Source of the DNA: Thermoflexales bacterium
GTDB lineage: Bacteria; Chloroflexota; Anaerolineae; J036; Brachytrichaceae
Direction: 5' to 3'
Assembly (NCBI GenBank): GCA_025056965.1
Contig: JANWVF010000076.1
Coordinates: forward strand, 1-35,903
DNA: 35,903 nt
The position numbers and the translations under genes are program-made. Positions 3,401 through 33,728 of the stretch are shown here, in pieces; the first letter of the stretch is position 1, and every line of letters begins with the position of its first letter. The notes beneath the pieces were generated by a model, which was given only the letters and a program-made list of their open reading frames with translations, was not told where the DNA came from and did no database searches.

Positions 3401-5631
3401 CAGTCTATGAGGCTGCGCAACTCATGGCAAAGCTCGCGCCGTTCATGCTCACCGAGAAGCGAACGGTCGCATGCAACAGTCGTGACGGTCACACGATTCG
3501 CCGCGCCGACTTCGTCGCTGAGGTCAACACAGCGTTATCGCTTTCATATAGAGCCATACAGCGCGACTTCGGCCTGAGCGCCCAGCATTTCTACCCCCGC
3601 GCGCTTCGCCGCCCGCGCATCAGCGCACACGTCGTTGAGCAGTTGGCGCAGGCAGCGCCTCTCCCCGAAACGCTCAAGCGGCTGAGCGTAGTTTGGGAAG
3701 AGATTGTCAGGATCGAGCCGGCCGGGGTAGAGGACGTCTATGACCTAACCGTTGAGGGATTCCACAATTTCGTCGCCAACAACATCATCGTCCACAATTG
3801 CGTCTACCAAGAGCAAATCATGCGCCTGGCGCGCGACATCGCCGGCTACTCGGTGGGCGAGGCCGACACCATCCGCAAAGCCGTCGCCAAAAAGAATGCC
3901 GAACAACTGCTGAAGCACAAGACCAAGTTCCGCGAAGGCGCGGTGAAGAAAGGCTACAGCGCGGAACTGGCTGATGCCATCTTCGGCGACATCGAATACT
4001 TTGCGCGCTACGGCTTTCCCAAGGCCCACGCCGCCGACTATGCTGCCATCACCTGCCAGACGGCCTGGCTGAAGGCGACCTATCCGCTTGAATACATCTG
4101 CGCGCTGCTTACCTGCGAGAGCGGCAATACCGAGAAGATCACTGCGCTCATCGCCGACGCCAAGCTACACGGCATCAAGATCTTGCCGCCGAGCGTGAAT
4201 GCCAGCGACGCCGATTTCACCATCGAAACGCCGCCCGGCTTCAAATCCAAAGACAGCATCGGCTCGATTCGCTTCGGCCTCATGGCGATCAAAGGGGTGG
4301 GCGAGGGACCGGTGAAAGCCATCGTCGAGGCGCGCAAGAGCGGCGGGCGCTTCAGGTCACTCGATGACTTCTGCCGGCGCGTGGACATGACCGCGCTGAA
4401 CAAGCGCGCCCTCGAGGCGCTGATCAAGGCCGGGGCGTTTGACGAGTTCGGCTCGCGCGCGCAGTTGCTGGCCGTCGTGGACCAAATGATCGGCGTGGCT
4501 ACTACCGCACGTCGCGCTGCCGAGCGCGGCCAGGGCATGCTATTCGGCGGGCTGGAGAGCGCCGACGAGGCCTTGATCGTGCTGCCGAAGCAGGTGCGCG
4601 AGATCCCCCGCAAGCAACTGCTGCAAGACGAGAAGGAACTGCTCGGCACCTACGTCTCGGCGCATCCGCTCCAAGCGCAACTTGACGCGCTCCAGCAGCA
4701 GATCACGCACACCAGCGCCACGCTGAACGAAGGCGACAACGGTCAGAAGGTCGTCGTCGCCGGCGTTGTCAGCTCCATCCGCCCGCATACCACCAAGGCC
4801 GGCCAAGCTATGGCCTTCGGTGAGCTAGAGGACATGTATGGCCGGTTGGAGCTCACCATCTTCCCCAAGACCTGGGAGAAGTACCGAGACAAGTTCCAGA
4901 AGGACAAAGTGCTGCTGGTGTGGGGCAAAGCCGAGGTGCCAGCGGGTGGCACGCCGAAGATCCTGGTCGAGAAGGTCAGCGACTCGTTTGAGATCGCCCG
5001 TAGCGCCGATGATGATCGCACCCGCTTCTACTACTACGATGCGCTAAGTGCCGAGCCGGGTCACGGCGTCTCCGAGGAGGCGATCAACGCTTACTTCAAC
5101 TCGTTATCGGCCGATCCGGCCTACGCCCCCCTGCCCGATCTATCGGATGACCTGGCGGCGCTGGACGAGATCAGCTTTACCGACGACGGAGCAGTCGTTG
5201 CCGACGCGCCGGATGCAGGAAGTGGACTAATCGCCGCCAAGGACGACGCGAATGCGCCGTTCGACGTATCGCGCGACGAAGAGCGGCCTGCGTTCGTCGG
5301 AGAGGAGACGACTGTGCCGGAGGCATCGAGCGAGTCGGCGGCGGTCGAGAATCCCCATCCGGCTGCCCAGGACTTGCCCCCCCTCTTCGCCGCCCGTCAA
5401 CCCCTGCGCATCGTCATCCAACGTAACGGCGATCCGCGCAGCGACATCGCCAAGCTGGAGGCCGTGTTGCAGACGCTGCGTAAATATCGAGGCGATCACC
5501 CGTTCTGCCTGACGCTGCGCCAGGCGAACGGCAGGGCTGTGACGCTGGACTTCCCCAACGACACGACGAGGGATTGTCCGGAGCTACGCCAGGAGTTAGC
5601 AGCCCTGCTGGGCGCGTGCTGCGTCGAGTGA
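412..5631 (+). CDS. dnaE: DNA polymerase III alpha subunit with an in-frame intein
   Basis: This is the replicative polymerase catalytic subunit, 1739 residues as translated and 1323 after removal of the intein (residues 714-1129). The N-terminal PHP domain opens with [13 protein letters not shown]. The polymerase palm has PDIDMD (D435, D437) and KMDYLGL (D596), matching the three catalytic aspartates of C-family polymerases. A helix-hairpin-helix region and an OB fold (about 1440-1530) follow. QGMLF at 1374-1378 sits where the internal sliding-clamp motif of DnaE usually lies. Two parts exceed the usual family length: a Pro/Ser-rich linker (about 316-352) between PHP and palm, and an acidic Asp/Ala/Glu linker (about 1545-1660) before a C-terminal domain. 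The start at 412 lacks a strong ribosome site but matches the family N-terminus. The Cys after the intein (C1130) replaces the hydrophobic residue usual before VYQEQ. Confidence 0.97.
2551..3798 (+). mobile_element. DnaE intein with LAGLIDADG homing endonuclease
   Basis: The 416-residue insert splits the conserved extein motif [13 protein letters not shown]. All splicing positions are present: Cys first residue (C714), block B TSDH (T782, H785), a C-terminal block ending [16 protein letters not shown] with penultimate His1128 and Asn1129, and Cys1130 as the +1 nucleophile. Two dodecapeptide motifs mark the homing endonuclease: LAYLIADG (D832) and LASLWDCDG (D944), both retaining the metal-binding Asp. 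The element therefore looks able both to splice and to cut. By eye it is less GC-rich than the flanking dnaE exteins, as expected of a horizontally moving element. Confidence 0.95.
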
Positions 5632-5903: not shown

Positions 5904-6752
5904 TTATGGTCTCAGCCGGCTGCGCGGGCGCTTCTTGGGCGGCGACGGTCGGTCGTCATTGTCGGCACGATCCGCCAGCGACGGTGCGCTGCTCGGGACA
6001 TCGCGCGGCGTGGCGTCAATCACCGGCGAAGGTGCGACGTCTATCGGGTTAGACGGGAACTCGGCATATTGCCTGTAGGGCGACATGCGGCTCAGCGCCT
6101 CGATGATGTAGGCCTGCATCACGCGGCTCAGCTCGTTCGGCGTGTATTGGGCGAGGTCATGCGCGTGTATCCGGCGCCGGGAGACCTCGGCATAGCAGGC
6201 GTGCACCTCGGGTGGTGGCGTCAGGGACGACAGATACAGCCCGGTCGGCTTGAGCCCGAGGCCGTTCACGAGTTCCTTCAGGTGTGTCAAGGTATGTTGC
6301 TCGATCTCCTGGATCAGTGCGCCGCGGCACACCGCATCTATGGTCAGCCGAGCGAGCACCCGCTGCAGTGCGACGCGCGCACGCCAGCACAGTATGTCGC
6401 GCCGTTCTTCTTGCGTCCATCGTACCACCAGGTGAACAAGCTCAGGGTGAGCCTGCTCTGGAACGAACTCGAAGATCAGTTCCAGCTCAAGATCCACCGG
6501 CAGGCCGTCGCGCGTCTGGATGCCACGGAAGGGGACGCGAATCGCATCGGGCGCGACGTTGACGAAGCAGCGAATCGTCTGCGTCAATGGGTCAATGTCG
6601 AAGAAGGCAGGGCCGCGATGCAAGGAATGGAACCGTTCGTTCTCATACACCACGGCGACTTCGTCTTCGTCCACCCAATATCTGCCGAATAGACGGCCGA
6701 GCGCACGCTCCAACCGATGAAAGAGAGGGGGATGTCGCTTAGACGGTTTCAT
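5904..6752 (-). CDS. SPFH/band-7-like protein
   Basis: This 282-residue soluble protein has a band-7-like core: the segment around FRGIQTRDGLPVDLELEL (about residues 75-91) corresponds to the typical SPFH strand pair, and the following helical part (VLARLTIDAVC...LKELVNGLGL) matches the second half of the fold. It has no N-terminal membrane anchor, unlike most stomatin/flotillin homologues, and ends in a Pro/Arg-rich basic tail. I chose the ATG at 6752 because it forms an ATGA overlap with the stop of the upstream ATPase gene; an ATG five codons earlier (6767) is possible. SPFH proteins usually form membrane-associated rings. Here it could be an assembly platform for the ATPases, which is inference from context. 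Confidence 0.7.
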   Translation of the reverse strand: MKPSKRHPPLFHRLERALGRLFGRYWVDEDEVAVVYENERFHSLHRGPAFFDIDPLTQTIRCFVNVAPDAIRVPFRGIQTRDGLPVDLELELIFEFVPEQAHPELVHLVVRWTQEERRDILCWRARVALQRVLARLTIDAVCRGALIQEIEQHTLTHLKELVNGLGLKPTGLYLSSLTPPPEVHACYAEVSRRRIHAHDLAQYTPNELSRVMQAYIIEALSRMSPYRQYAEFPSNPIDVAPSPVIDATPRDVPSSAPSLADRADNDDRPSPPKKRPRSRLRP

Positions 6753-8110
6753 AGCACGAGTTGACAAGAACCTGTCGGATCAATCCGCAGGCAACCAGGT
6801 TTCACCGAGTCAAGCCGACGTTGTAGGCTAAGCAAGTACTGCGCTAATCGCGCCTCTGGGTTGCCACTATATGGTCGCGGCGATGATTCGTGCTCGAGCA
6901 TCTCGGCGAGCAGCTCGGTGCGGGTGGCCGGCCGTGGATGGCGCTCGCGGATGCGCCGCAGCAGGTGCCGCTCAACCGGGCTCAGGCCGCTGATGACATG
7001 ACCGTTGATCTGCACTGCGTCGCGCGTCGGGTCGAACTCGAAAGGGCGTCTGGCCGGCAGCGATTGAGATGCAACGAACGCAGCGAAGATCGGCGAACGG
7101 ATCACGTAGCGCCCCGACGGCTTGTGAATCACCCCCTTGGCCTCTAGTGGACGGAGAGCGTCGCCCTCGGCGGGCAGTCCACGAGCGAGTGCGGCAAGCA
7201 CGGCCTGCTCCTCCACCTCTAGGCTCTCCCAGATGCGCTCGCATTCGGGCAAAACATCAACATTATTAGACTGCAGCCGGCTCAGTGCGTTCGGTGCACC
7301 TAAGTAGAGGCTCGGATCGTGGCGCAGAGCCGTCATCGCGGCGCGCAACAAGCCGGGATGGTTACCCGACCACGCAAGCAGCGCCTCGACCGCAGCCTGT
7401 GACACCCCTCGGATACCCCACTGGGCGCTCAGCTCCTGCACCAGCGATCGAGCATCATCGTCGGCGTACGGACCGATGGCGATGGTGTGCGAGGCCATGA
7501 GCTCGTAAAGCTCTTGAAACTCAGCCTCCTCGCGCAGATAGGCTAGCTCCCGCCGAGTAAAGGTGACATACATCAGCCTGCGCTTGTGGTCATCGCGGAA
7601 CGATCGCAAGCTATTGAGCGTGGCTGATGGCGCATGCTGCACCACATGGTCGAAGTCGTCTAGCAGGATGAAGAGCTGGTCGAAGCCAGCGCGAAAGATC
7701 TCGGCGAAGGCATCCTTAAGGTTGATCCGCGCGCGCGCTGCCGATGCAATGGCTTGATCGCGCAGATCGGTCACCGTCGTCGTGAGGGGGTAAGGCGAAT
7801 GGGGCGCGTCACGCAAGGCGCGCAACAGGGCGTCGAGCATCAAGGTGTGTAGGGCAGCCGGTGTGTATTCGGCTAGATCGGTGCAGTTGACCAGGACGCT
7901 CAGACAGGCTGCAGCGGCCGGGCCGAGATGGTAGGCAAGTACGTCGTGCCGCGCCATGTGACGGGCGATGTTCGACTTGCCGGAGCTGCCCACGCCGACA
8001 AGCGAGCACGACTCGCCGGATCGCAGCACGTCCAGCGCCCGCCGGATCAGATCGCTGCAAAAGCTCAACCGACGCTTGCCGCGTGAGAGTTCATGCGTCC
8101 TTTCTTCCAT
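6749..8110 (-). CDS. P-loop (AAA/STAND-like) ATPase with C-terminal degenerate winged helix
   Basis: The product has 453 residues from the ATG at 8110, which has a GGAGG site 8 nt upstream; an ATG at 8128 would add six residues. Numbered from 8128, Walker A is GVGSSGKS (45-52) and Walker B is LFILLDDFD (152-160). A GNHPGL motif later in the sequence fits the GxP signature typical of STAND ATPases. The last ~100 residues (PTRDAVQINGHVISGLSPVERHLLRRI...) align in layout with the PhoB/OmpR-type winged helix of the next gene upstream but are divergent, lacking the clear recognition-helix and RGKGY wing. It overlaps the stop of its paralogue by 20 nt and its own stop overlaps the SPFH start. It is probably a nucleotide-switched DNA-binding or scaffold protein; the target is unknown. 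Confidence 0.8.
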   Translation of the reverse strand: MEERTHELSRGKRRLSFCSDLIRRALDVLRSGESCSLVGVGSSGKSNIARHMARHDVLAYHLGPAAAACLSVLVNCTDLAEYTPAALHTLMLDALLRALRDAPHSPYPLTTTVTDLRDQAIASAARARINLKDAFAEIFRAGFDQLFILLDDFDHVVQHAPSATLNSLRSFRDDHKRRLMYVTFTRRELAYLREEAEFQELYELMASHTIAIGPYADDDARSLVQELSAQWGIRGVSQAAVEALLAWSGNHPGLLRAAMTALRHDPSLYLGAPNALSRLQSNNVDVLPECERIWESLEVEEQAVLAALARGLPAEGDALRPLEAKGVIHKPSGRYVIRSPIFAAFVASQSLPARRPFEFDPTRDAVQINGHVISGLSPVERHLLRRIRERHPRPATRTELLAEMLEHESSPRPYSGNPEARLAQYLLSLQRRLDSVKPGCLRIDPTGSCQLVL

Positions 8111-9428
8111 CGCTCCTGCCTCCTTCATCTCCGGTTATCAGCTTATAGCCCTTGCCGCGCACGGTGACTAAGTAACGAGGCCGGTCGGCTACTGGCTCAA
8201 TCTTCTTGCGGACGCGCTTCACCAGAGCATCCACTGCGTTGTGATGCAGTGCCTCGAAGTGCTCGCCGGGATGGAGCGCCTCGAGGATCTCCTGACGGCC
8301 GTGCACCCTTCCTGGCGTGCGGGCCAGGATGGCCAGCAGGTCGAACTCGCGGGCGGTCAGGTCGGCGCGCGCCTGACCGTTCACCCACACGGTGCGGGTA
8401 TGCTCGTCCACCACCAGCCGGCCGTTGGTCGCCGGCGCGCCATAGGCGCAGACATACTGCGCGAAGATCGGGCTGAACGGTTGCCCATTTCGCACCACGC
8501 CCTTGAGCGCGAGCCCTTCAATTGCGCAGGCATCGGGCGACGGCTGACCGCGTGCCAGCCGATATAGGGCGATCTGCTCGTCGGGCGGCAGACTCATCCA
8601 CAGCTTGCGGCACTCCTCATGGACGGCATCGCCCGGCGTCGCCCGACCTTCCGTCAGCTCGTCGAACATGGCCACGATCAGTCCGGGATGCCCGCCGCTC
8701 TCCTCAATCAGAGCAGCGCGCGCCTGCGGCGCGAGCCGCCGGCCGCGGCGCGCTTCGATCTGTTCAATCACTGCGTAGGCATCGCTGCGGCTGTAGGGGG
8801 GCAGGCCGATCACCGAGCGCGAGAACAGCTCGTAGAAGCCCTCGCACTCGGCCGGCGGGCGGATGCGCTTCGGATGGTCGCGCACCACGAGCAGGTAACT
8901 GAGCCAGGCTTTGTTGTCGTCGCGCAGCGCCCGCAAGTTAGCCAGCGCCAGCGGCGGCAATGCGCGATAGGCCTCATCGAACTCGTCGAGGATGACGCAT
9001 AGCCGAAAACCGCGCTCGCGGCACAGCATCAGCGCCGCCAGCTCGACATGCCGCCGGGCCAGCAGGGCATTGCCGCTGCTGATGATCACTTCCCGGCGCA
9101 GGGCGTTCAACTCGTTGCGCAGGCCGTGCAAGTCGGCATGCTGGCCGCACGCTTCAACCATCGCGGTGAGGATCAGCTCGAAGAATCCCCACTCCGAGAT
9201 TTCGGCCAGACGATTGCAATCGCAATAGGCGAACAAGGTGACGTCGGCCTGCTCGCGCAGGTAGTGGGCGCGCGTCTCCGCTTCCAGCAAGAAGCGCAGC
9301 AGGCGCGACTTGCCCATGCTGGCGCAGCCAACGATGGCGCACGACTCGCGTGCGCGGATTAGCTCGAACAGCGGACCGAGGATCTCGGCGCGATACGTCG
9401 GATTCATCGCGGCCATGGCGAATTTCAC
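8091..9428 (-). CDS. P-loop (AAA/STAND-like) ATPase fused to a PhoB-type winged helix
   Basis: This 445-residue protein has Walker A GCASMGKS (34-41), Walker B CVILDEFD (144-151), and a GGHPGL motif (245-250) typical of STAND/AAA-like ATPases. Residues about 336-432 form an OmpR/PhoB DNA-binding domain: LTAREFDLLAILARTPGRV, a recognition helix around NAVDALVKRVRKKI, and the wing YLVTVRGKGYKL. It has no receiver domain, so the ATPase takes the place of the phospho-switch, with nucleotide state probably controlling DNA binding. The GTG start at 9428 overlaps the preceding stop as GTGA; ATGs at 9416 or 9407 are alternatives. The preceding gene does carry a receiver, so the two may act together. 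Confidence 0.85.
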   Translation of the reverse strand: MKFAMAAMNPTYRAEILGPLFELIRARESCAIVGCASMGKSRLLRFLLEAETRAHYLREQADVTLFAYCDCNRLAEISEWGFFELILTAMVEACGQHADLHGLRNELNALRREVIISSGNALLARRHVELAALMLCRERGFRLCVILDEFDEAYRALPPLALANLRALRDDNKAWLSYLLVVRDHPKRIRPPAECEGFYELFSRSVIGLPPYSRSDAYAVIEQIEARRGRRLAPQARAALIEESGGHPGLIVAMFDELTEGRATPGDAVHEECRKLWMSLPPDEQIALYRLARGQPSPDACAIEGLALKGVVRNGQPFSPIFAQYVCAYGAPATNGRLVVDEHTRTVWVNGQARADLTAREFDLLAILARTPGRVHGRQEILEALHPGEHFEALHHNAVDALVKRVRKKIEPVADRPRYLVTVRGKGYKLITGDEGGRSDGRKDA

Positions 9429-11188
9429 TCCTCACCGACTCTGACCGGCAGGATGGCCTCCGTGCGCGCCGGCAGCGCCTCCGGCTGTGGCCAGTCTTGC
9501 GGCGGCCAGTCGCCACCCCAGGCAGCCAGGCGCTCGGCGATGAGCGCGGCGCTCAGCAGGGCACGCGAACGCGCGGCGTTCCGCGCGCTTGCGTCCGCGT
9601 CGGAATACTTGCGCAGCAGCGAGATCAGCGTCTCCATCAGCAGCGCCCAGTAATACTGCTTCAACTCGTCGGGTTCGCCGGTCAGCCCGCAGAACAACCG
9701 GCGCAGCGTGGAAATGGCGTCGAACGCCTTTTGCAGTTCGCCGCGCAGGCGGGGGGATAGGTCGGGCAAATTGTCCCAGTCCGGCGGGGCGAGCCGGTCG
9801 TTTCCTGCGACCGGCGCGAGCAACGCCAGATCGAGGGCATAGGCGAGACGCAGCTGATCGCGTGGAATCGGCGTCAGCCGCAGCTGGATGTCGGTCTCCA
9901 GCTCGGCGAAGTCGCGCAGGATGTATCCTGAGCCGGAGCGCTCGTAGTCCAACACGTATGTCTTGCAGTCCTGGTCCACGAAGATGTTGCCGCTGTGGAG
10001 GTCGCCATGGGTTGCCGCTTCCCATCGCGAGCGGAAGGAGGATTGCAGACGATGCCGATACGCCCAACTCACGGGGTTGCGCAACATAAGCGCCCTTCCA
10101 ACCAGTGATGCTGCGTCGAACCGCTCGCTGTTTTGATTACAGTAATCCAGAATGCGGCGCTCAAAATCGGGTGTGAACATGTGGGCGACGTAATAGCTGT
10201 AGACTGATTGCACGTCTACACTGCCGCGCTCTTTGTAAAGCGGGCGCAGCGTGACGTTGAACAGGTCTTCTAGCGCTCGCCGCACCTGTTCGCCAGATGC
10301 GCGGGGATACCAGCTGCGGAACAATCGGCGATCCTCGCGGGCGATGTTGGTGTAACGGATTGCGCCGATGTGCCACAATGTGACGCTGTGCCCCTGATCC
10401 TCAATGCGCGCGCAACGTTCGGGGAGCAGCAAGCCCTTGATCCACTGTCTGTAGTTGCTTACTTCGCTCTTGATTTTCTCCGCGGCAGCCACTTTCACGA
10501 CCTCACGCTGCAACGCGACGCGATCGGCACGGATAGGTTCCGCAATGTAGACGCCGGCGCGCGCGGGCGCGCTGCTCGACATCTGAGACGTGGAGGGCGG
10601 GTCGGGCGTGACCAAATGTACCTTGGCGATGCTCGGGCTTTCCCCGCGATAGAGCCGCACTAGGGCGCAGCGGATTTCCTCCTCGCTCGCCTCCGGGTTG
10701 TCTTTGAGCGTTTTGCTGCGCAGTTCATCGCAGCCCGGGCCACTGATCTGAAGGTTACACGGGCAGAACTGCTCGAATGCGCACTTGACTCTACCTAGGA
10801 GCTCGTCCGGATCTTCGCCTTTCTCGAGGACAAAGCTACCGTGGGCGTTCGCCCGATTCGTGAGCTGGATAGTAGCGTAGGCAGTTACGATAATGCAGGC
10901 CGTTGGCTTCAAATCCTTGGCCAGGTGCAAGCCCGCTTCATCTGTGCCTGGTCCGAACAGCGCTAAGTCCACAATCGCCACGCGGCAGCCATATGCCCGC
11001 GACTTCGTCTTGGCGTCTGCGATCAGCGCCTCACCTTGACCTTCGGCGATGATCGGCTCATAGCCCTGCGTCCTGAGATCGCAGGCGTGATCCTGGGCAG
11101 TCTGCACATCATCATCCACGACCAACACGCGCCGGGAAGCGTTGCAAGACCAACTCAGATTGTCTGAGTCTTCTCCCACTCGGTTCAT
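9425..11188 (-). CDS. Response-regulator receiver fused to an APH-like kinase domain
   Basis: The 587 residues begin with a complete receiver: D25-D27 acidic pocket, phospho-acceptor D74, T102 and K123. From about residue 185 a protein-kinase/aminoglycoside-phosphotransferase-like fold follows, with VVKV (K232) and E242 in the N-lobe, the Brenner motif HGDLHSGN (H394, D396, N401), and the metal-binding D414 in YVLDYERS. All catalytic residues of that fold are present, so a phosphotransferase acting on a protein or small molecule is likely, switched by phosphorylation of the receiver. A GAGGAA ribosome site lies 8 nt before the ATG. The gene starts 24 nt after the five-GAF kinase and couples by GTGA to the ATPase gene. 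Resistance to aminoglycosides is unlikely given the context. Confidence 0.85.
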   Translation of the reverse strand: MNRVGEDSDNLSWSCNASRRVLVVDDDVQTAQDHACDLRTQGYEPIIAEGQGEALIADAKTKSRAYGCRVAIVDLALFGPGTDEAGLHLAKDLKPTACIIVTAYATIQLTNRANAHGSFVLEKGEDPDELLGRVKCAFEQFCPCNLQISGPGCDELRSKTLKDNPEASEEEIRCALVRLYRGESPSIAKVHLVTPDPPSTSQMSSSAPARAGVYIAEPIRADRVALQREVVKVAAAEKIKSEVSNYRQWIKGLLLPERCARIEDQGHSVTLWHIGAIRYTNIAREDRRLFRSWYPRASGEQVRRALEDLFNVTLRPLYKERGSVDVQSVYSYYVAHMFTPDFERRILDYCNQNSERFDAASLVGRALMLRNPVSWAYRHRLQSSFRSRWEAATHGDLHSGNIFVDQDCKTYVLDYERSGSGYILRDFAELETDIQLRLTPIPRDQLRLAYALDLALLAPVAGNDRLAPPDWDNLPDLSPRLRGELQKAFDAISTLRRLFCGLTGEPDELKQYYWALLMETLISLLRKYSDADASARNAARSRALLSAALIAERLAAWGGDWPPQDWPQPEALPARTEAILPVRVGEE

Positions 11189-11212: not shown

Positions 11213-14200
11213 TCACCTCGCGCCCACATGAGGCGGCGCGACGGGCAGGAGGATGATGAAGGCGGCGCCTTGAGGCGGCTGTTCATCGGCCAGGCGCACG
11301 ATGCCTCCCATCGCCTCGATGTACTGGCGGACGCGAAGCAAGCCAATCCCATGCCCTAGGCTGTTGTCAATCTTCTCGCGGAAGAGACGCAGGCGCAATT
11401 CCGGAAGCACGCCCGGCCCGTCATCCTCGACGCGCACCTCGACCCAGCGGCCGGCACGCAGCCGGGTGTTCACGGTGAGACGGCTGCCCTGCTTCCCATT
11501 GGACATGGCCGCCACGGCGTTGCCCACTAGGTGGCCGAGCGCCCAGCGCAACCCTTTGGGATTGACGCGCACCCGCACGTCGCCACAATTTAGGACGGGA
11601 TCGAGCGCCAGCGCCGCCGTCGGACGTTGCCGCCAGGCCTCCTGGACGAACTCGCGAACCAGCGTGTCGCAGGGCACGTCACGATACTCGGGCTGCTTCT
11701 CGTTATCGCTCCCCAGTGCTTTCTTAAAGGCCAGCCACAAGCGCGCCACGCCTTCGCCTATCTCTGTGACCCACCTGCGACCCTGTTCAGAAAGGCCAAT
11801 CGAATCATGCAGCAACCATCTAACGCGCCGTCGAATGCTGAGAAACTCTCTGCCTGCGCCGTGCGCGAAGTCCACGAAGCCACCGGTCGCCACCGCCAGC
11901 GCCGTTTGATAGCGCAATCGGTCGGTCAGTTCGTCGCGCTCCATCACCAGGCCGATCTGGCGGGCGATGCCGCGCATCTGCTCCTCGTCATCCTCGTTGA
12001 ACGCCTGCAGGTTTGGGCTCTCCAGGATTAGCACGCCAAGCAGGTCGCCGCTGCTGCTCATCAGCGAGGCGCAAAGCTCAGGGCGCATGCCCGCGCAGCC
12101 CGGCAAGAAGTAAGGATCTGCGCTCGCGTCCGGGCAGTTGTAGACCTCAAGCTCGCGCGTTTCAAGTGCCAAGCGCGCCACATGGCCGGCGATGCTGCGA
12201 TCGCCAACCGGTAGCGTGCCGGTCTCACTCACGTCGTCGAAGGGGTAGAAATCGAGCGAAGCCGGTGCTACCTTCAACGCGCTCTCCGCAGGGGCGTATG
12301 TGTAAATCGCGACTTTGGCGTGCGGGTAGTGCTTCTTAAGCAATACCATGATGCGGCGTAGCGCTTCGTCTTTGCTGAAGGTAGTGGCAGCCAACTCGGT
12401 CACTTGCAGGGCAAGGTCACGCTGATCACGCTGTTTCTCGGCGAACTCCAGCAGAATCGAGTCGCGAATGCTGCCGGCGGCGAGATCGGCCAACACCTTG
12501 AAGAGGAAGCGCTCCTCCGCGGTGAAGACGTGCGGATGCCGATAGTTCAGGAACATGACGCCGACGGTTTCACCCCCGGCGCGCAGCGGCAGAATGGCGA
12601 CCGAGCGGATGCCCTCGCGCCGAACGAAGTCCTTGCTGAAGTCGTCCCTGCCGGTATGCTCGATGAAGCGCGGCGCCTCCAAGTCGAAGCCACGCTGGAC
12701 GACGCCGCCCGCGGTTGCGCGCTCTGCGTAGAGCGCGTCTAGGTCGCGCACGCCGAAATGCGTTCCGAGTATCAGATCTTTGGTTCCCCAAACCAGATGC
12801 CAAAGGGTCAAGGCCGACAGATCACGGGCAACCTCGCGCATGACTCGCTTGATCTCGTCCAAGGTATCGGCCAGGTTGATCGGCGCGGCGATCCGGCGCG
12901 CCACCTCCAGCACGCGTCGTCGGTCGGCTAGGCAACGCGCATTGTCGAGCGCCAGCGCGGCCACGTCGGCCAGGTCCTCCAGCGCCCGGGCATGTGCCTC
13001 GTTGAAGGCGTTCGGGAAGGGGGACTCGACGTTGAGCGCGCCGAGAATCGCCGCCGGATTCGGCTCATCGCCGCGCCGGATCGGCGCGACTAACTGGCTG
13101 CGCGTCCCGCGCCCGTGAACGTCATAGAAGTGCGCCTGCCACTCTGAGGCCGTCACGTCCGCCGCTCGCTGAGTCTGACCGGTGCGCAGCGCAAGCCCAG
13201 TGATGCCGCGGAACGGGTCGGCCTCCCGATTGCACCGGAGTGCGCCGCCGGCGTCTAGAAAGTATTCGCGGCGGATCTCGCGGGGTTCGGGGTCTACCGG
13301 TTCATCGGCGCGCTCCCAGTCGCGCAGGTTGACCTCGACGACGGCCTGCGGCAGGTTGATGATCTCGCGGGCAGCATCCAGAAGGGCGCGCACTACGTCT
13401 TCTAAGCAGGCGTCCGGCTGCAGAGCCGCGTCCATCACGCGCTGGTGACTGGCCAGCTCCCGAGCGCGCGCCTCCCGCTCTGCTGCGGCAGCGTCGCGCG
13501 TCCGCTGCGCTGCCCGCCAATTCTGGATCGCTACGGCGGCCAGCCTGGTGAACATCTTAGCCTGAGTCAGCTCGGGATGGCCGAACATCTGGGGGGATCG
13601 CCAGTACAAGCGCAGCGCGCCGAGCGTCTCGCCTGTCTCCACCGACCGCACTGGCGCGCAGATCAGCGCGCGGACGCCCTCTTCGCTCAGCACGGGGTGC
13701 GTTTCGATCAGCCGCCGCAGGTCAGGCGATCCAGGCTCGTCCGTGTCGGGAACCGCCAGCATCCCCTCGCGCAAGGCCTTAGCGGTCAGGCCGTCCGGGC
13801 GCGGCATGCGGATCGGGTCAGGCACCTTCTGCCAGCCGGCATGGCCAGCCTGCTCGATGTCGTAGGTGACCCGCGTGCCGTCTGCAGTAGCTGGCACAAT
13901 CGAAGCGCAATCTACGCCGACCACCTCGCGCGTAACCTGGCAAATCTCGGCCAGGGTGTCCTTCAAGGATGGCCGGTCAGCATGCGCAAGGATGTCGCAG
14001 GTGAGCGCGTTCAGCCGCGTCTGGCGCTCATAGCGCCAGGCCCGCGCCAGCACGGTGGACGCCTCGCGGCAGAACTTGCGCAGCAGCCGGAGCTGCTCAG
14101 GCACGATCTCGCGCGGCCGGATGACATTGTCGAGCGCAAGCAGGCCAACCGAATGCCCCTCAGCTTGCAACGGCGCAAGCAGCCATTCGCCAACCGGCGC

Positions 14201-14920
14201 ACAACGACCTTGAGCCGACTCCTGGCAGGTGAGGCAATCCGGCCCAAGCTCTTCACCACGGAAGCGCATGATCTCGGCGGGGGACGTCAGGGCGCGGGCG
14301 GCGTAAGGCGATTGGGCGACGGGGATATGGTGCTGCTGCATCTCGGCCGATGCGCAGTCGCCGGCGGCTGCCAGCCCGATCAGGATTTGCGGCATGCCAT
14401 CACGCGCCGACGTCCCGGCGGCTGCGTCCACCCACCACAGCCGTGCGCGCTCGAAGCCCATCTGCAGGCCGCTCCGGACGATGACTTCGGCAGCCTCCCG
14501 GAGCGATTCAGCGCGGTCGGCCCGACGCATCGCCTCGTCCAGTGCGCGCAGGCCGTTCAATTGGCGCAAGCGCCAGGTCAACTCGGGGATTAGGACATCC
14601 CCTTTCGGGAGATAGCACCACGCACCGGCCTGCAGCGCGCGATAGCCGACTTCGGGATCGTCGAAGCCGGTGAAGATGATCGCCTCGGCATTCGGCTGCA
14701 GGCGCATCAAATCTTCCATCGCGGCGATGCCGTCTTTGCCGGGGCCTAGCCGCTCATCAATCAGGAAGACGTCGAATGGCTGCGCCTCCTCTTCTGCGAT
14801 CCGCACAGCTTCCTCCGGCCTCTGCGCCGTGGCCACTTGGATCGGCAACTCGTATCGCAATCGCTTGGCCATTTGATCCGTGAATAGCGGATCGTCATCT
14901 AGGATCAGCGCGCGAATCAT
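11213..14920 (-). CDS. Hybrid histidine kinase: receiver, five GAF domains, HATPase
   Basis: I chose the ATG at 14920 because GGAGGGG lies 6 nt upstream and the receiver begins at once (MIRALILDDD). An upstream ATG at 15067, 9 nt after the previous stop, would add 49 featureless residues. The 1235-residue product has a receiver with D55, T84 and K106. Five GAF-type sensor modules follow (roughly 130-295, 305-490, 510-690, 700-860, 870-1030), then an H-box-like helix (DFAHGAGREF, His near 1018) and a C-terminal HATPase (GHLVGNAVAAM, DDGPGV, GHGIGL). No membrane helix is seen, so it is a cytosolic sensor. GAF1 holds a Cys cluster (DCLTCQESAQGRC, about 226-238) that could bind a metal or sense redox. 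It likely phosphorylates itself and neighbouring receivers. Confidence 0.88.
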   Translation of the reverse strand: MIRALILDDDPLFTDQMAKRLRYELPIQVATAQRPEEAVRIAEEEAQPFDVFLIDERLGPGKDGIAAMEDLMRLQPNAEAIIFTGFDDPEVGYRALQAGAWCYLPKGDVLIPELTWRLRQLNGLRALDEAMRRADRAESLREAAEVIVRSGLQMGFERARLWWVDAAAGTSARDGMPQILIGLAAAGDCASAEMQQHHIPVAQSPYAARALTSPAEIMRFRGEELGPDCLTCQESAQGRCAPVGEWLLAPLQAEGHSVGLLALDNVIRPREIVPEQLRLLRKFCREASTVLARAWRYERQTRLNALTCDILAHADRPSLKDTLAEICQVTREVVGVDCASIVPATADGTRVTYDIEQAGHAGWQKVPDPIRMPRPDGLTAKALREGMLAVPDTDEPGSPDLRRLIETHPVLSEEGVRALICAPVRSVETGETLGALRLYWRSPQMFGHPELTQAKMFTRLAAVAIQNWRAAQRTRDAAAAEREARARELASHQRVMDAALQPDACLEDVVRALLDAAREIINLPQAVVEVNLRDWERADEPVDPEPREIRREYFLDAGGALRCNREADPFRGITGLALRTGQTQRAADVTASEWQAHFYDVHGRGTRSQLVAPIRRGDEPNPAAILGALNVESPFPNAFNEAHARALEDLADVAALALDNARCLADRRRVLEVARRIAAPINLADTLDEIKRVMREVARDLSALTLWHLVWGTKDLILGTHFGVRDLDALYAERATAGGVVQRGFDLEAPRFIEHTGRDDFSKDFVRREGIRSVAILPLRAGGETVGVMFLNYRHPHVFTAEERFLFKVLADLAAGSIRDSILLEFAEKQRDQRDLALQVTELAATTFSKDEALRRIMVLLKKHYPHAKVAIYTYAPAESALKVAPASLDFYPFDDVSETGTLPVGDRSIAGHVARLALETRELEVYNCPDASADPYFLPGCAGMRPELCASLMSSSGDLLGVLILESPNLQAFNEDDEEQMRGIARQIGLVMERDELTDRLRYQTALAVATGGFVDFAHGAGREFLSIRRRVRWLLHDSIGLSEQGRRWVTEIGEGVARLWLAFKKALGSDNEKQPEYRDVPCDTLVREFVQEAWRQRPTAALALDPVLNCGDVRVRVNPKGLRWALGHLVGNAVAAMSNGKQGSRLTVNTRLRAGRWVEVRVEDDGPGVLPELRLRLFREKIDNSLGHGIGLLRVRQYIEAMGGIVRLADEQPPQGAAFIILLPVAPPHVGAR

Positions 14921-15076
14921 CTGCTTCCCCTCCACGGCGAACATGTGATCATCCCCCTTCGTGAAATCCAATCCGCTCACGAGCCGCACGCGCACCGCAA
15001 TTGCCCCCATGCGCGTAGGCCCCGCGTGAGCTCGAATCGCGCGTTGTGGCAGCGTATGCTCCTTCATTAAACACCG

Positions 15077-17323
15077 CTAGACCCCTCCCGGCAACTCCAC
15101 AACTATGCGGGTGCCCCACAACATGGCGCTCTCGGCGACGTAGATGCGGCCGTGCATCGCCTCCATGAGATGGCGCGCGACGTATAGCCCCAGCCCGCTG
15201 CCACCGTCGCTGCGCGTGGTGAAGCCTAAGTCGAAGATGCGTTGCCGATCGCGCAGGTGGATACCCGGCCCGTCGTCCTCCACGCTTACGATGACGACCG
15301 GTCCGGCGCGCCGCTGCCGCTCCTCGATGCGCACGCGCACGCGCCCCACGTGGCCTTCCCGATGCTCCTTCCTAGACCGCAGCAAGGCAATCTGCTGCAC
15401 CGCGTTGAGCATCACGTTGAGCAGGACGTGCTGCAGATGGACCGGGTTGGCACGCGCGATCACCATGCGCTCGGGCATCTCCACCTGGACATCCACGCCG
15501 GCGCGGTCGGCCTCGTCGCGCAGCATCTGAACCGCTTCCTGAGCTTCGTGCTCCACCCGCACGGCGTGAACGCTCGATTGCGTCGCGAAGCGCCGGAACA
15601 GCTCGTTCATGCGCGACAGCGACGCAACGCTCTCCAGCGCATGCGCAAGCATGCCCTGAGCGCAGCGCAGCGAATCCTGTGCCGACGCCGGCGCGATGGC
15701 CAGCGCGCGCTCGACCTCGCCGAGCTGCCGCTCCAATGATTTCAATGCCTCCTTGGCTGCAGGGATGCGGTTGTTCATCTCATGCACTAGGCCGCGATTC
15801 AACTGGCCGAGCAACATATCGCGCTGAAGCGTCACGATGCGGGCGACCATCTCACGGCGATCCAGCGCCGCGCCGACGGCTAGCGCGCCGGCGCGCGCCT
15901 GTTCACGGCGCGCCTCGTCGAAGACGGTAGGCCGGTCGTAGAAGAAGAAAAGGGCGTAGCGTGTCGTCGCATCCACGGGCACCGGCACGCCTAGACACGC
16001 TTGGAAGTGAAGCAGCGGCAGCAAGTAGCGCACCCTAGCAGCAGCCGCTTCGACGTTCTCAATGACACAAAACTCGCGGTCCTCGGCTACGTCCCGCACC
16101 GGACTATGAATCAAATTGGCTGCCGTCTGAATTGCCAGCCGCTCGTCATCGCGAGGAAGCTCGATCTCCACCTTGCGGGCCTCTCGATCGAGCTTGAACA
16201 GCACGGCTAGCGAGGCGCGGGTCAGGCGCTGGGCGCGCAACACGGCCTGGGCCAACAGCCGCTGCGGCTCTGCGTAGGCAGCAGCCGGCGCCTGCCATTC
16301 ATGCGCAGCGGCCGGCCTCGTCAATTCGCTGGTCTGCGAGGCCAGGAGCACATCGAGCAGATCTTCAGCCTCGAAGGGCTTCGGCAAGATCTTCACACCG
16401 CGCGCCAGCAGCTGCTCCAGTGCCGGATTCGCCTTGCCGGTGAGGCAGCCCCAATCGCCGGAGGTCAGCACACCGTGCATCTGCGGCGCAACGTCCAGCA
16501 TGCGAGCCAGCGCCTCCAAGCCCGATATGCCCGGCAGATGCACGTCCATAATCACCAGGTCGAAGGCCGCCCCGGAGGCCAGGCGCGCAAGGGCTTCTTC
16601 GGCCGATGCAGCGCCGTCGGCGTGTTGGCCGGCGCTGCGCAGCCATCGCACCCAGCATTCCCGATGCTTGTCGTCGTTATCCACGATCAGCACGACACAT
16701 GGGCGCGGCAGACCGGCCAGCTGCAGCGGTAATCGCACTCCCCGTTTTGAAGTGACGGGGATGCCAGAACGCAATTCGTCCCGCATCCTGTCGTTCAAGC
16801 GCGCGTCGTCGTCCGACCAGCGCACGGCGCGAATGTCACGCATAGTTAGGGCAATCCGCCGCTGACCGATGTCAACATGCTGCACGACTGCCTTCACCGC
16901 GTCACCGATCCAGAACACATCTTCGATCGGTCGCTTGCACCAAGTCGGCAGATTTGATTGGTGTAGGAGTCCGGCGACGCCTGGCCGTAGCTCGACGAAG
17001 ACGCCATAGGGCTGCACGGCAGTGACGATGCCCTCGACCAGTTGCCCAGGGGAGAGCCAGTCGCCGACGGTGAGCCACGGGTCATCCTGGGCCAGGCGAA
17101 CGCTCAACTCCAGAGACTCGCCGTTCCGTTCGCCCAGCATCACTGCCTGGACTTTGACGCCCGGCCGATAAGTCTGCTGCCAGTTTCGCCGCTCCTCGGC
17201 CGTCCAGGCCAGCTCGCGCTCACGAATGATGGCCTTCCGACCATCCTCCAGCTTGACGAGCAGGCCAAAGGGCATGATCCGGATCACCTCACAGGTGAAG
17301 AGCGTGGTCATCGTGGTGGACAT
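15077..17323 (-). CDS. Histidine kinase with two S1 RNA-binding domains, receiver and GAF
   Basis: This 748-residue protein has an unusual domain order. Two S1 (OB-fold) domains come first: about 6-77 and about 92-163, the second with GQLVEGIVTAVQPYGVFVEL and IGQRRIALTMRDI, typical of ribosomal protein S1 and Tex/PNPase-type modules. A complete receiver follows (208-330; acidic D215/D217, acceptor D260, T287, K315), then a GAF-like domain (about 350-490), an H-box GLVHEMNN (H514), and an HATPase (NVMLNAVQ, DDGPGI, GGSGLGLYVARHL). All kinase motifs are intact. S1 domains bind single-stranded RNA, so RNA sensing or ribosome association is a reasonable inference. This is the first gene of the minus-strand signalling run; the ATG at 17323 or the one at 17311 may be used. 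Confidence 0.88.
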   Translation of the reverse strand: MSTTMTTLFTCEVIRIMPFGLLVKLEDGRKAIIRERELAWTAEERRNWQQTYRPGVKVQAVMLGERNGESLELSVRLAQDDPWLTVGDWLSPGQLVEGIVTAVQPYGVFVELRPGVAGLLHQSNLPTWCKRPIEDVFWIGDAVKAVVQHVDIGQRRIALTMRDIRAVRWSDDDARLNDRMRDELRSGIPVTSKRGVRLPLQLAGLPRPCVVLIVDNDDKHRECWVRWLRSAGQHADGAASAEEALARLASGAAFDLVIMDVHLPGISGLEALARMLDVAPQMHGVLTSGDWGCLTGKANPALEQLLARGVKILPKPFEAEDLLDVLLASQTSELTRPAAAHEWQAPAAAYAEPQRLLAQAVLRAQRLTRASLAVLFKLDREARKVEIELPRDDERLAIQTAANLIHSPVRDVAEDREFCVIENVEAAAARVRYLLPLLHFQACLGVPVPVDATTRYALFFFYDRPTVFDEARREQARAGALAVGAALDRREMVARIVTLQRDMLLGQLNRGLVHEMNNRIPAAKEALKSLERQLGEVERALAIAPASAQDSLRCAQGMLAHALESVASLSRMNELFRRFATQSSVHAVRVEHEAQEAVQMLRDEADRAGVDVQVEMPERMVIARANPVHLQHVLLNVMLNAVQQIALLRSRKEHREGHVGRVRVRIEERQRRAGPVVIVSVEDDGPGIHLRDRQRIFDLGFTTRSDGGSGLGLYVARHLMEAMHGRIYVAESAMLWGTRIVVELPGGV

Positions 17324-17565: not shown

Positions 17566-18679
17566 ATGCTAGAAGCGCTAAGCCCACTGAAAGACAGGCT
17601 GGCCGATGCTCAAGCACGCATCGCCGACCTGCGGGAGCGTCTTTGACATCGCTGCGAAAGCAAAGCGCATCAGCGAGCTTGAGGTGCTGGCATCGGACGC
17701 GAACTTTTGGAACGACTCTAGCCGCGCACAGGCGCTAATGCGGGAGATGGGGACGCTGAAGGCGAGCGTAGATGCCTATGACCAGCTGCTGCGGCGCGCC
17801 TCGGATGCAGCCGTGATGATCGAGCTGGCCAACGAGAGCGGCGATGAAGCAGCCGTGCGCGAGGCCGAGCACGAAGTGCTTGCAGTGGAAGCCGCGCTTG
17901 CGCGCGCCGAGCGTGAGCTGATGTTCTCCGGCAAACACGACCGCGCCGACGCGATTCTCTCGATCCAGCCGGGCGCCGGCGGCGTGGACGCCCAAGATTG
18001 GGCCGAGATGCTGTACCGAATGTATCTGCGCTGGGCCGAGCGACACGGCTTCAAAGTGAGCGAACTGGACTACACGACCGCTGAAGTGGCCGGCATCAAA
18101 AACGTTACCCTGCAGATCTCCGGCGAGTATGCCTTTGGCTACTTGCGCAGCGAGCGTGGCGTGCATCGCCTGGTGCGCTTATCGCCGTTCAACGCGGGCA
18201 ATACGCGTGAGACGTCGTTTGCCCGTGTGGACGTGTATCCTGACATCCAAGACAGCGAGATTCGCATCGAGATCAACCCGAACGACCTAGAGATTGACAC
18301 ATATCGCTCGCAAGGCGCCGGCGGGCAGAACGTTCAGAAGAACGAGAGTGCCGTGCGCATCAGGCACATTCCGACCGGCATCGTCGTCACCTGCCAGGAT
18401 CAACGCAGCCAGACCCAGAACCGAGAGCGCGCCATGCATATCCTGAAGGTGCGGCTTCAGGAGCTCGAGGAACGCAGGCGCGAGGCAGAGCTGCGCCAGC
18501 TGCGCGGTGAGCACGTGGAGGCGGAGTTCGGCAACCAGATCCGCAGCTATGTGTTGCATCCCTACCGGCTGGTGAAGGACATGCGCACCGGCTACGAAAC
18601 CAGCCAGACCGACGAGGTGCTGGATGGCGACTTGGACGCCTTCATGGAAGCCTACTTGAAATTGGGCATTCAGCGTTGA
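17566..18679 (+). CDS. prfB: Peptide chain release factor 2 with programmed +1 frameshift
   Basis: RF2 ends translation at UGA and UAA. The reading starts at ATG 17566 and runs 26 codons to CTT TGA C at 17641-17647. There the ribosome must slip +1, reading CTT then GAC (17645) and skipping the T at 17644, to give about 370 residues, the normal family length. GGGAG three nucleotides before CTT (17633-17637) mimics the internal Shine-Dalgarno that stimulates the shift in Escherichia coli. The second frame carries the RF2 codon-recognition tripeptide SPF (in RLSPFNAGN) and the catalytic GGQ (in GAGGQNVQKNES). Expression is thus autoregulated: low RF2 slows termination at the in-frame TGA and favours the shift. 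The TGA is a control element, not damage. Confidence 0.95.
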
Positions 18680-28142: not shown

Positions 28143-31100
28143 TCACTGCGCCAGTTTCTGCGCCAGCGGCAGCAGGTCCTCCAGCCGGTAGATCAGCACC
28201 AGCGCCGTGCCATCCGCGGCGGCAGTGACGACGTAGCGGCCATCCGGCGAGAGTGCCACACCTAGCACGCGATCGGCGTGGAGCGTAAAGCTGGCCAGCG
28301 GACGGCCAGTTTCGGCATCCCAAAGGCGCACCGAGCGATCCGAGCCGGCGGTTGCGATGATGCGCCCATCCGGCGAGAAGGCGGCGCCGTTCACGCCGGA
28401 GGTGTGACCCGTGATGATGAGCAGCTCCCTGCCGCTCGCCACCTCCCAGATGCGCGCCGTGCCGTCTTCGCCTGCCGAGACAATCCGTTCACCGTCGGGT
28501 GAGAATGCGACGCTCCACACCGTGCCGGCATGTCCACTCAGGACGCCTGCCGGCTCGCCGGCTTCGCCCCAGAGGCGTATGCTCCCGTCGGCGCTCGCCG
28601 AAGCCAGCAGGCGGCCATCGGGTGAGAATGCGACGCTTTCAACCTTGTCGGCGTGGCCCTCGAGCGTATAGATCGGCGCGCCGTTCGCCGCGTCCCATAT
28701 GCGGCACGTGCGATCCTCGCTGCCCGTGGCCACGCGCTTCCCATCGGGCGAAAGCGCCACGCTCAACACTGGGCCGCCATGTCCGATGAGCCGAATCGTC
28801 GCTCCTGTGCCTTGCACGTCGGCGACAAGAGCCATCCCGTTTAGGCTTGCTAGGGCCACGCGCCGCCCGTCGGCTGAGAATCGCGCTTCGTTGATCGCTG
28901 CGGGCGGGTCGTCGAGCAATGCGACGCGCCGGGTGAGTGTCGCGACGACCTGCCCGTTAAGATCCCAGATGCGCGCCGTGCCATCGTCGCTGGCCGTCAG
29001 GATGAGATCACCCTGCGGGGAGAAGTGGGCGCTGTTCACGCTGCCGATGTGCCCTTCGAGTGCGGCAAGCACAACACCCGGTCGCAAGTTCCACACCAAC
29101 ACAACGCCATCAGCATCGGCTGTGACGATGCTGCTCCCGTCGGGCGAAAAGTGCGCTCCGAACACCGCGCTCCGATGTTCGCGCAGCACCAAGGCCGGCC
29201 GCGAAGTCTCGACGCTCCACTGAGGCTGCTGCGCCAGCGCCCTTTGTTGGACGAGCACACCTTGTAACAACTCGATGTTCCAGACGCGCACTGCGCCGTC
29301 GTCGCCTGCTGTGACGATCCGCCTGCCGTCGGGCGAGAACTCGGCGCTGCGGATGGTCAGTTCATGTCCGCGCAACTCGGCGATCGGTTGGCCGGCGAAG
29401 GGCGACGCATCGGTGAAGGGCGTCGCAAGCCACAGCCGGCCGATGCCGTCTTCGCCGGCGGTCAAGATGAAGGCGCCATCGGGCGAGAAGCGCGCGACCT
29501 TGAGCGGCGGGCCGCCGAGCCCGCCTAACGTGGGCTGAAGCGACTCGCCGGAACGCGCATCCCAGATGCGCGCCGTGCCGTCGTCGCTGGCGGTGACGAT
29601 GTACAGGCCGTCTGGCGAGAAGTCAGCCGTGTTGATCGCCGCGCTGTGGCCGCCACGCAGCGAAGTAACGACCTGACCACTGCGCACATCCCAGATGCGC
29701 GCTTCCTGATCCACACCGGTTGTGACCACGTAAGCACCGTCCGGCGAGAAAGCGGCGCTGTTGAGCGGCCCGTCTGTGCTCTGCAACGTCGTGATCGGTT
29801 GGCCGGCATTCACCTGCCGCGCGTCCCAGATGCGCGCTGCGCCCTTGTCGTCGGCGGTCAGGATGAAAGCCCCATCCGCTGAGAATTGCAGGCTGCTGAT
29901 CAGCGCCGCATCAGCGGCTAGCTCGGCGCGCAGCACGCCGCTCGACCGATCCCAGATGCGCACGATCCCGTCGGCGCCGGCCGTCGCGATCGAGCTGCCG
30001 TCGGGTGAGAACCGGACGGCGACGACCGGCCCGCCGTGTCCGGTCAGCCGAAGCCTCGGCAGGGGTTGTTCCATCACCCGGCGCAGCGCATCTATCGCGT
30101 CCTGAGGCGTCTCTTCGGGCGGCGTAGTCGTGACCGCCGCGATCGCGACGCGCAGACTCTCGATCGCGCTGACGTCGAGCAGTGCGTTTGCTTCTGCTGC
30201 CAAGCGGCGTGATTCGGCGATGCGCTCGGCCGATTGGGCGAGCGCCGCGGCGGCATCAGCAGTCGCCTTGAGATCGAGTGCTTCCTCGGCCGCCATTTCG
30301 GCCTGCATCTGGTTGACTTCGGCCAATGCTTTGGCTGCCTGCGCCGTGCTTTTGGCGGCCTGGGCAGTGGCGTTGGCTCGCAGGGCGTTGTTGGCCTCGG
30401 CCTGAGCGGTGGCTTGCTGCGACACGGCCTGCGTACTTGCGATGTTGGCTTGGGTCGCGTTGATGACGGCTTGCTGCGCCGATAGCCAGGCGATGACCGC
30501 CAGCGCTGTGCTCAGCGCCAGCGCGCCTACCAGCAAGATAGCGCGCTGGCGCAGCCGAGCGTTGGCGCGCCGCTGTTCTTCTGCCCGCAAGCGCTCGGCT
30601 TCGGCCAGCGCGCGCGCCTGTTCGATCTCCCGAAGGCGGGCTTCCTCCTTGGCGCGCTCTTCGGCCAGCGCGGCGTCACGGCTGGCCTGCACGAACTCGC
30701 GCTCTTCCGCGCTCAGGTCGGAATATGCTTCCGCCTCTTCCAGCAATCGCCCACGCAGAAGAAGGCTGGCGTCTCGTTCGCCGCCCGGCGCATTGGCGCT
30801 GGCGATCCATTCGCGCGCTGCCTGCGTCAGTGCGAAGCGCCTGCGCAGCGCCACGCGCGCCTCGTCAAGCCAGGCCGCCAAGCGTGGCCAGTTGCGCACC
30901 AGCGCCTCGTGCGCTACCTCGATCTGCGGCACTTCGCCCGCAGGCCCGCGACGGTTTGCCAGCTCGGCCAGCGACACGCTCGGATCGGCTGAGTCCACGC
31001 CGCTCAGTTTCACCAGCCGCTGCTCGAAGATCAGTCGGCGCAGCACCTCCTCGACGCGATCCTTCGGTTCGCCCATCTGGAAGACGCTGGCGAGCGGGAT

Positions 31101-32387: not shown

Positions 32388-32441
32388 TGTGGGTTAAGGC
32401 ATTCGAGTGGGAAGCCCAACACTCGGCGTTTCCCGTCTGCG

Positions 32442-33728
32442 TCATAGGAGTTCTCTTAAGAAGCGTTGCAGGCTATCGCCGATCTTCTGGAGTTCCACCA
32501 CCACCTTCAGCAGATCGTCATCCACGATCCTGAAGCGATTGCTCACGCGACTTTGGAACTGGTAGAAGAGCGGCCGGGCGCGCGGCGCGTCATCGGCTGC
32601 CAGTCGCTCCTGGATGCGCGCGTCGAGCGTCAGGATCGCGCTCGCCCAGTCCTCTTGTAGCCCATCGAGCATCTCGTGCACCAAGCTGCTCACGAAAGGC
32701 CAGCTCTGCGCCAGCACGTCTGGGCTGCGGCCGATGTTGCTTGCGATGGGGTTCAGCTCATCCTCGATGCGCTGCCAGCGGTCATGCTCGGTCACCAGCA
32801 TTTGAAGGCGATCGCGCAACCCTTTGAGCGATTCGATGCCGCGCGCGAATTCATCCAAGCTGAGGGGATCTACCTGCTGCTGCGCCAATGCCTCGCGCAG
32901 CTCGACCAGCGGCGGAATTACGCTGCGTTGCAACATCGCGCGCACGACCTCAAAGATCTTAGCGTTGACCAGCGACGGCTCGCGCTCGAGCAAGCGTCGC
33001 ATCACCGGCAAGATCTCGGTCAGAGGCTTGACCGTCTGCGTCTCCAGCGCGTCGCACACGCGCTGCTGTATCTGTGCCATGCGCGTCGCCCATGCGGTGT
33101 CGCCCGGGGCGAAGCTCGGCCGCTTGGCGATTGCCAACATCCGGCTGATGATGCCGTCCCATTGGGTGAGATATTCGGCCAGCGTGTTCCAGGCCGTCTC
33201 ATCGGTTTCCGCGTTGCGGCAGTCGCGCTCGATCACGCTGTAACGCACTTGCAGCTCTTGGAATTCGTCATGGAGGCGTTTGTAATCGCTCAGCCGAGCG
33301 ATGTAATCGCTGGCATCTTGCAGGTCGTCGCGGATGCGCAGGATCAGCGGTCGGGCGTTAGGATCGCGCGCCAAACGCTCCAGCGCGCCGAGGCCGCGCT
33401 GAATATCGCGATACGCGCTGCTCGCGGCGCCTTCTCCCGCGGCGGCCGCGTCGAGTCGCGCCAGCGCCTGACGATGCGCCTCGGCCAACTGTCCCCAGGG
33501 GAGATGAGGGCGCTCCTTCGCGCAGTAGGCAGCTAGTTCATCCAGCCGTCCGCGGCGCTGGAAATAGGTGATGATCTCCAGCGCCCATAGCTCGATGCCG
33601 CCGTCGTATTGTGGGATGCTCTCCGGGTTCACCCCGAGATCGCTGAGCGCAACTTTCAGCTCGGCTAAGCTGAAGGCCGATGCAAGCGCTTCACGCAACG
33701 TGGGTGTGACCGTAGTGGCGTCTGGCAT
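32442..33728 (-). CDS. Effector-associated-domain-like protein with long helical C-terminus
   Basis: Residues 10-80 (LREALASAFSLAELKVALSD, LGVNPESIPQYDGG, LEIITYFQRRGRLDELAAYC) match the layout of EAD1-type effector-associated domains, small death-like helical modules that couple effectors to STAND NTPases. The rest (about 100-428) is almost all helical, with coiled-coil character and no catalytic motif I recognise. The start abuts the preceding stop (TGA-ATG, no gap), so it is translated with the secreted two-copy protein; it ends 54 nt before the STAND gene. It may be the adaptor or structural partner of that NTPase. Function is inferred from context. Confidence 0.75.
   Translation of the reverse strand: MPDATTVTPTLREALASAFSLAELKVALSDLGVNPESIPQYDGGIELWALEIITYFQRRGRLDELAAYCAKERPHLPWGQLAEAHRQALARLDAAAAGEGAASSAYRDIQRGLGALERLARDPNARPLILRIRDDLQDASDYIARLSDYKRLHDEFQELQVRYSVIERDCRNAETDETAWNTLAEYLTQWDGIISRMLAIAKRPSFAPGDTAWATRMAQIQQRVCDALETQTVKPLTEILPVMRRLLEREPSLVNAKIFEVVRAMLQRSVIPPLVELREALAQQQVDPLSLDEFARGIESLKGLRDRLQMLVTEHDRWQRIEDELNPIASNIGRSPDVLAQSWPFVSSLVHEMLDGLQEDWASAILTLDARIQERLAADDAPRARPLFYQFQSRVSNRFRIVDDDLLKVVVELQKIGDSLQRFLRELL

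Follow-up and report, generated by a model that had tools for sequence, protein, structure and literature searches.

Histidine kinases are among the main signalling proteins of bacteria, yet RNA is not known to have an established place among the inputs that they receive. The window, by which we mean the whole 35,903-nucleotide stretch of Thermoflexales DNA analysed here, holds a gene that raises the question of what two S1 domains do at the head of such a kinase. A first-pass annotation had described a 748-residue chain in which two S1 domains precede a receiver, a GAF domain and a kinase core, and had left its strand unstated. Pfam and alignment bear out this architecture in an open frame on the minus strand; frame 1 of the plus strand across 15077-17323 contains several stops and is not open. 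The gene, here called the S1-kinase, and its parts are as follows.

15077..17323, minus strand: S1-S1-REC-GAF-histidine kinase, 748 aa, open frame, by Pfam and alignment
17099..17302, minus strand: S1 domain 1 (S1-1, residues 8-75), F19 kept, family-specific invariant R36/E37, no H/D/R face
17075..17083, minus strand: DPW linker motif between the S1 domains (residues 81-83), as in bS1
16838..17050, minus strand: S1 domain 2 (S1-2, residues 92-162), full bS1-type RNA-contact set (Y106, F109, H121, D151, R156)
16349..16693, minus strand: receiver domain (residues 211-325), D260 and K315 invariant
15860..16270, minus strand: GAF domain (residues 352-488), by Pfam
15734..15823, minus strand: DHp H-box (residues 501-530, GLVHEMNNR, H514), by alignment
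15089..15448, minus strand: HATPase_c (residues 626-745), N640, DDGPGI and GSGLGL boxes

Together the two S1 domains score 68.6 bits in Pfam against a cut-off of 22, with single-domain scores of 54.9 and 22.5 bits; the first domain by itself is weak yet above the cut-off (PF00575, 22.5 bits, E 4e-4). They are followed by matches to Response_reg (54.1 bits, residues 211-325), GAF_2 (30.8 bits against a cut-off of 28.6, residues 352-488) and HATPase_c (73.7 bits, residues 626-745). No Pfam HisKA match was found at E 0.1, and some NCBIfam kinase models align across that region. The linker from the second S1 domain to the receiver is variable and was modelled with low confidence. Chance or artefact is ruled out as the source of this architecture, which recurs in relatives at 27-77% identity. 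Because H514, N640, G685/G687 and G710/G712, as well as the receiver phospho-acceptor D260 and K315, are invariant in the alignment of 21 relatives, the family does not owe its form to lost signalling chemistry. The protein has the H-box, the N, G1 and G2 boxes and the receiver Asp/Lys in common with hybrid sensor histidine kinases built from REC, GAF and HK domains, but it differs from them in carrying an S1 pair as N-terminal input, in placing the receiver ahead of the GAF and kinase domains, and in the missing Pfam HisKA match.

Because a fold search with the whole-protein model returned mostly receiver structures, we modelled the N-terminus alone, using AlphaFold2 on residues 1-170 and five family sequences (mean pLDDT 85). 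The five-strand S1 barrel anticipated for this region was found in both copies, with strands at residues 8-17, 20-25, 30-34, 57-65 and 71-74 in S1-1 and at 95-104, 107-113, 116-121, 142-151 and 156-161 in S1-2. The best structural match of the model is the NMR structure of bS1 domains 3-4 (7a05, Z 15.0, rmsd 4.3, 158 residues), followed by bS1 in two 30S mRNA delivery complexes (9gut, Z 14.8, rmsd 3.0, 157 residues; 9guv, Z 14.3, rmsd 3.2, 157 residues); matches within 1 Z count as tied, and single-domain matches come next at Z of about 13.5 and lower. In a sequence search of residues 1-167 against solved structures, bS1 was again the top match (E 1.5e-32), and NCBIfam bS1 models match the N-terminus with 101.6 bits, aligned over their middle domains. 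A non-S1 N-terminus is thus ruled out by Pfam, the bS1 models and the fold search. As judged from sequence and model, the S1 pair is of the bS1 domain 3-4 type, from the mRNA-binding half of bS1. With those domains it has in common the tandem S1 folds, the DPW linker, the RNA-contact residues of the second domain and the fold of the whole pair. Unlike bS1, it is without the ribosome-binding domains 1-2 and is fused to a kinase, and the face of its first domain is replaced by the invariant R36/E37. The S1-kinase is not ribosomal bS1 itself, a possibility ruled out by its 101.6 bits against a family cut-off of 648 and by the presence of a D3-D4-like pair only.

The RNA sites of the mycobacterial RpsA protein, MtRpsA, are F307, F310, H322, D352 and R357 (PMC6205349), and they map with identical spacing to Y106, F109, H121, D151 and R156 of S1-2. 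The aromatic/basic RNA face, whose loss, like a non-S1 fold, the first-pass annotation had named as refuting it, is therefore intact in the window. In S1-1, F19 is kept, L22 follows, R34 stands where His is expected and the D/R pair is missing, so that the RNA-contact set is absent. RNA sensing by the S1-kinase is a plausible hypothesis, and because homology to bS1 domains 3-4 is combined with identifiable contact residues, it is directly testable by point mutants. The S1 pair could instead dock to the ribosome or to a protein, or be an RNA-binding output under the adjacent receiver.

The first-pass annotation overlooked that the S1-kinase is the first of six tightly packed minus-strand genes, which are separated by 9, 24, -4, -38 and -19 bp. 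Its five partners are the following.

11213..15067, minus strand: REC-GAFn-HATPase protein, 1284 aa, second gene, 9-bp gap after the S1-kinase
9425..11188, minus strand: REC-TCAD9 protein, 587 aa, small-molecule-kinase fold with the APH-like kinase loop HGDLHSGN...LDYE intact
8091..9428, minus strand: STAND-like AAA_16 ATPase, 445 aa, with an OmpR-type winged helix at its C-terminus, by Pfam
6749..8128, minus strand: second STAND-like AAA_16 ATPase, 459 aa
5904..6767, minus strand: SPFH/Band-7 protein, 287 aa, final operon gene, by Pfam

In the REC-GAFn-HATPase partner, the H-box position is occupied by His in each of the 20 homologues aligned, and TCAD9 (PF19974) scores 79.7 bits in the third gene against a gathering score of 40. 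The window operon itself has no caspase, TIR or CHAT domain. MoxR, vWA and VMAP are likewise missing from its six genes by Pfam, and a vWA-MoxR ternary conflict system is ruled out because the operon has no MoxR or vWA gene. PADLOC matched no system model among the window proteins, giving only weak receiver-region matches to the SduA model, and promoter and terminator scans returned nothing that clearly exceeded shuffled sequence.

Outside the window, the partner is fixed and the effector varies. A REC-GAFn-HATPase gene adjoins the S1-kinase as the next gene in all 23 loci examined, which come from two Chloroflexota classes. Of the 19 loci long enough to include a third gene, 17 encode there REC-TCAD9 or, in the winged-helix group, a receiver protein that shares its middle region; three of the winged-helix assignments were made by alignment alone, and the assignment in L170 by BLAST. 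The two exceptions are L065, where the third gene encodes EAD7-REC-CHAT, and L072, where it is a short receiver gene. At its C-terminus, the third protein carries TIR in L073, CHAT and a weak TIR match in L059, a caspase in L169, and a winged helix in L063, L066, L067, L069, L071 and L074. All 12 aligned third proteins that lack a winged helix retain an intact APH-like loop, HGDLHxxN, while the loop is degenerate in all six that have one; as the sequences are related, this is a pattern rather than a test.

A search for TCAD9 and the inspection of 20 additional neighbourhoods revealed operons without the S1 gene. Here REC-TCAD9 lies mostly beside a GAF-rich kinase and STAND-like ATPases, sometimes with SPFH. 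The upstream slot is occupied by STAND-like ATPases in L207, L209 and L211 and by a PocR-HATPase kinase in L217, where the same GAF-kinase and TCAD9 genes stand beside it and a 158-aa receiver-like ORF lies between. Because other occupants fill this slot, we take S1-S1 to be an input module that can be exchanged for others, and the operon family suggests a modular phosphorelay of the conflict type in which S1-S1 takes the place of the sensor. Peptidase_M29-like genes adjoin the STAND-like ATPases in two of these operons (L207, 15276-16667; L209, 16034-17401).

We tentatively favour the reading that the S1-kinase is the sensor kinase heading a six-gene conflict-type phosphorelay operon, serving immunity or cell suicide, with an S1 pair that binds RNA. 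The bS1 D3-D4-like pair would bind RNA in single-stranded form or an mRNA/ribosome state, chiefly through S1-2, and such binding together with a GAF ligand may gate autophosphorylation at H514, within the conserved set of kinase residues. The phosphate, we infer, would pass to the receivers of the S1-kinase and of its GAF-rich partner, and from there to the receiver of REC-TCAD9, a direction suggested by the operon and the receiver Asp. In the window organism the probable output is the small-molecule kinase activity of REC-TCAD9 and the STAND ATPase with the winged helix; in relatives, the TIR, CHAT, caspase or winged helix fused to the third protein would presumably act in their stead. In view of the operon, the suggestion that the kinase reads a transcript gives way to the likelier one of a front end to a conflict-type phosphorelay. 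The S1 fold, the bS1 domain 3-4 type, the S1-2 face and the PocR sensory kinase in the corresponding slot of L217 speak for the earlier proposal, whereas the absence of the H/D/R face from S1-1 and the Pro or Arg found at the H121 position in 13 of 21 relatives speak against it. A more specific version, which we consider doubtful, is a prokaryotic RNA alarm in which an RNA clamp derived from bS1 would detect stalled ribosomes or RNA that is foreign or damaged, and would signal through kinase and receiver to TCAD9-linked effectors, in relatives caspase, TIR or CHAT. If this were true, two-component signalling would trigger RNA-sensing cell suicide.

The main rival takes the S1 pair as the output, with phosphorylation of the receiver altering RNA binding by S1 and so regulating translation or RNA decay directly. 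ANTAR response regulators also join two-component signalling to an RNA-binding domain, ANTAR being an output domain unrelated to S1. An ANTAR-like arrangement would agree with the position of S1-S1 immediately ahead of a receiver that retains its Asp and with the complete RNA face of S1-2, but a module ahead of REC-GAF-kinase occupies the usual place of a sensor, the operon already supplies REC-TCAD9 outputs, and in L217 a PocR-kinase stands in the place of the S1-kinase. We regard this rival as unlikely.

The sensor reading also has to be weighed against the contact residues across the family. At the five contact columns, 70 bS1-like segments, each the best-matching domain of its protein and not always domain 4, have F/Y in 68, F in 68, H in 68, D in 62 and R/K in 68. 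The corresponding counts for the S1-kinase family are F/Y 10/21, F 17/21, H 8/21, D 19/21 and R/K 15/21, with position 106 non-aromatic in about half of the 21 relatives and the H121 column occupied by Pro in 12 and by Arg in one. The S1-2 face is complete in the window clade, near-complete in L169 and L170 of another class and eroded in most of the remaining relatives; about half of the family shows an eroded face on a retained fold. In S1-1, R36 and E37 are invariant in 21/21, and R36 is absent from the bS1 segments. Both the invariant R36 and E37 of S1-1, of which R36 is not bS1-like, and the erosion of S1-2 with its fold kept would suit a docking or dimerisation module for the ribosome, RNA polymerase or a partner protein, with no RNA sensing and the signal entering by GAF. 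Against such docking stands the retention of most of the RNA face in the window clade and in the other-class loci, and we hold it to be improbable.

The distribution of the S1-kinase is patchy. Five of the nine genus members carry it at full length or nearly so, as do 22 genomes in a class-wide sample of 396, and it is missing from the other 19 genomes of the taxonomic family; it was also found in two genomes of another class, so that it spans two Chloroflexota classes. In a pattern-based GTDB scan, the long proteins among the matches listed were all from Chloroflexota and the remainder were S1-only. REC-TCAD9 is likewise missing from all four genus members that have no S1-kinase (in G020, the contig stops before the site), so the cassette comes and goes as a unit. 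It lies near dnaE in three sister genomes, as it does in the window; within the genus it therefore shows no obvious mobility, and the proposal of a recent insertion between dnaE and prfB is weakened. Searches by tblastn returned no phage match (E 1e-15) and no plasmid match (E 1e-30) for the S1-kinase, nor was a relative found in viral contigs, and a phage or plasmid origin is ruled out on these searches. In genome G113, the locus L171 (8377-9147) encodes a 256-aa fragment made up of S1-S1 and no more than the beginning of a receiver, possibly a decayed S1-kinase.

An ordinary environmental two-component system ending in transcription, with sporadic TIR, CHAT and caspase fusions and no conflict role in the window organism, is the least probable alternative, since the OmpR-type winged helix on an ATPase among the window outputs and the six third proteins that pair a degenerate kinase loop with a fused winged helix are outweighed by the TIR, CHAT and caspase domains at one same position in different loci, by EAD7-REC-CHAT in L065 and the STAND ATPases of the operon, and by presence in only five of nine genus members.

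A conflict-type phosphorelay headed by an S1 pair would be built from familiar components. According to the sections of PMC7159879 and PMC8195603 considered here, TCAD9, APH-like kinases, receivers, TIR, caspase-like domains, Band-7, EADs, STAND NTPases and S1 all occur in the conflict network. The same sections report no histidine kinases among vWA-associated effectors (Kaur et al. 2020, PMC7159879), describe receiver domains without histidine kinases in conflict networks (PMC7159879; the Death/TRADD-N paper of 2021, PMC8195603), and contain no description of an S1-headed kinase. The window operon family has TCAD9, receivers, APH-like kinases, TIR, caspase-like domains, Band-7, EADs, STAND NTPases and S1 in common with the NTP-dependent conflict systems as presented there, but the window operon differs in having its own kinases and in being without MoxR, vWA and VMAP. 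The operon family therefore supplies kinases beside a TCAD9 receiver protein, where the conflict papers note receivers without them. A full-text search of the open-licence literature found no S1-headed histidine kinase, and while the constituent parts have already been described, this suggests that an S1 pair as kinase sensor is distinctly unusual and apparently unreported in that literature.

Elsewhere in the window, the minus strand holds another conflict-type cluster of a different kind at 28143-33728, with an EAD7 protein (428 aa) followed by an nSTAND1-WD40 protein (1414 aa), and accompanied by a Ser/Thr kinase at 34596-35876, also on the minus strand. In L065, EAD7 recurs next to the S1-kinase, there as a fusion with REC-CHAT. 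The prfB gene for release factor 2 (17567-18679, plus strand) seems, as read by eye, to have kept its programmed frameshift: an upstream frame that opens at ATG 17567 runs to CTT TGA C, where the long frame takes over. By Pfam, an intein with a LAGLIDADG domain sits in the gene for DNA polymerase III alpha (412-5631, plus strand, 1739 aa), whose open frames are shorter in several sister genomes, at about 1306-1416 aa.
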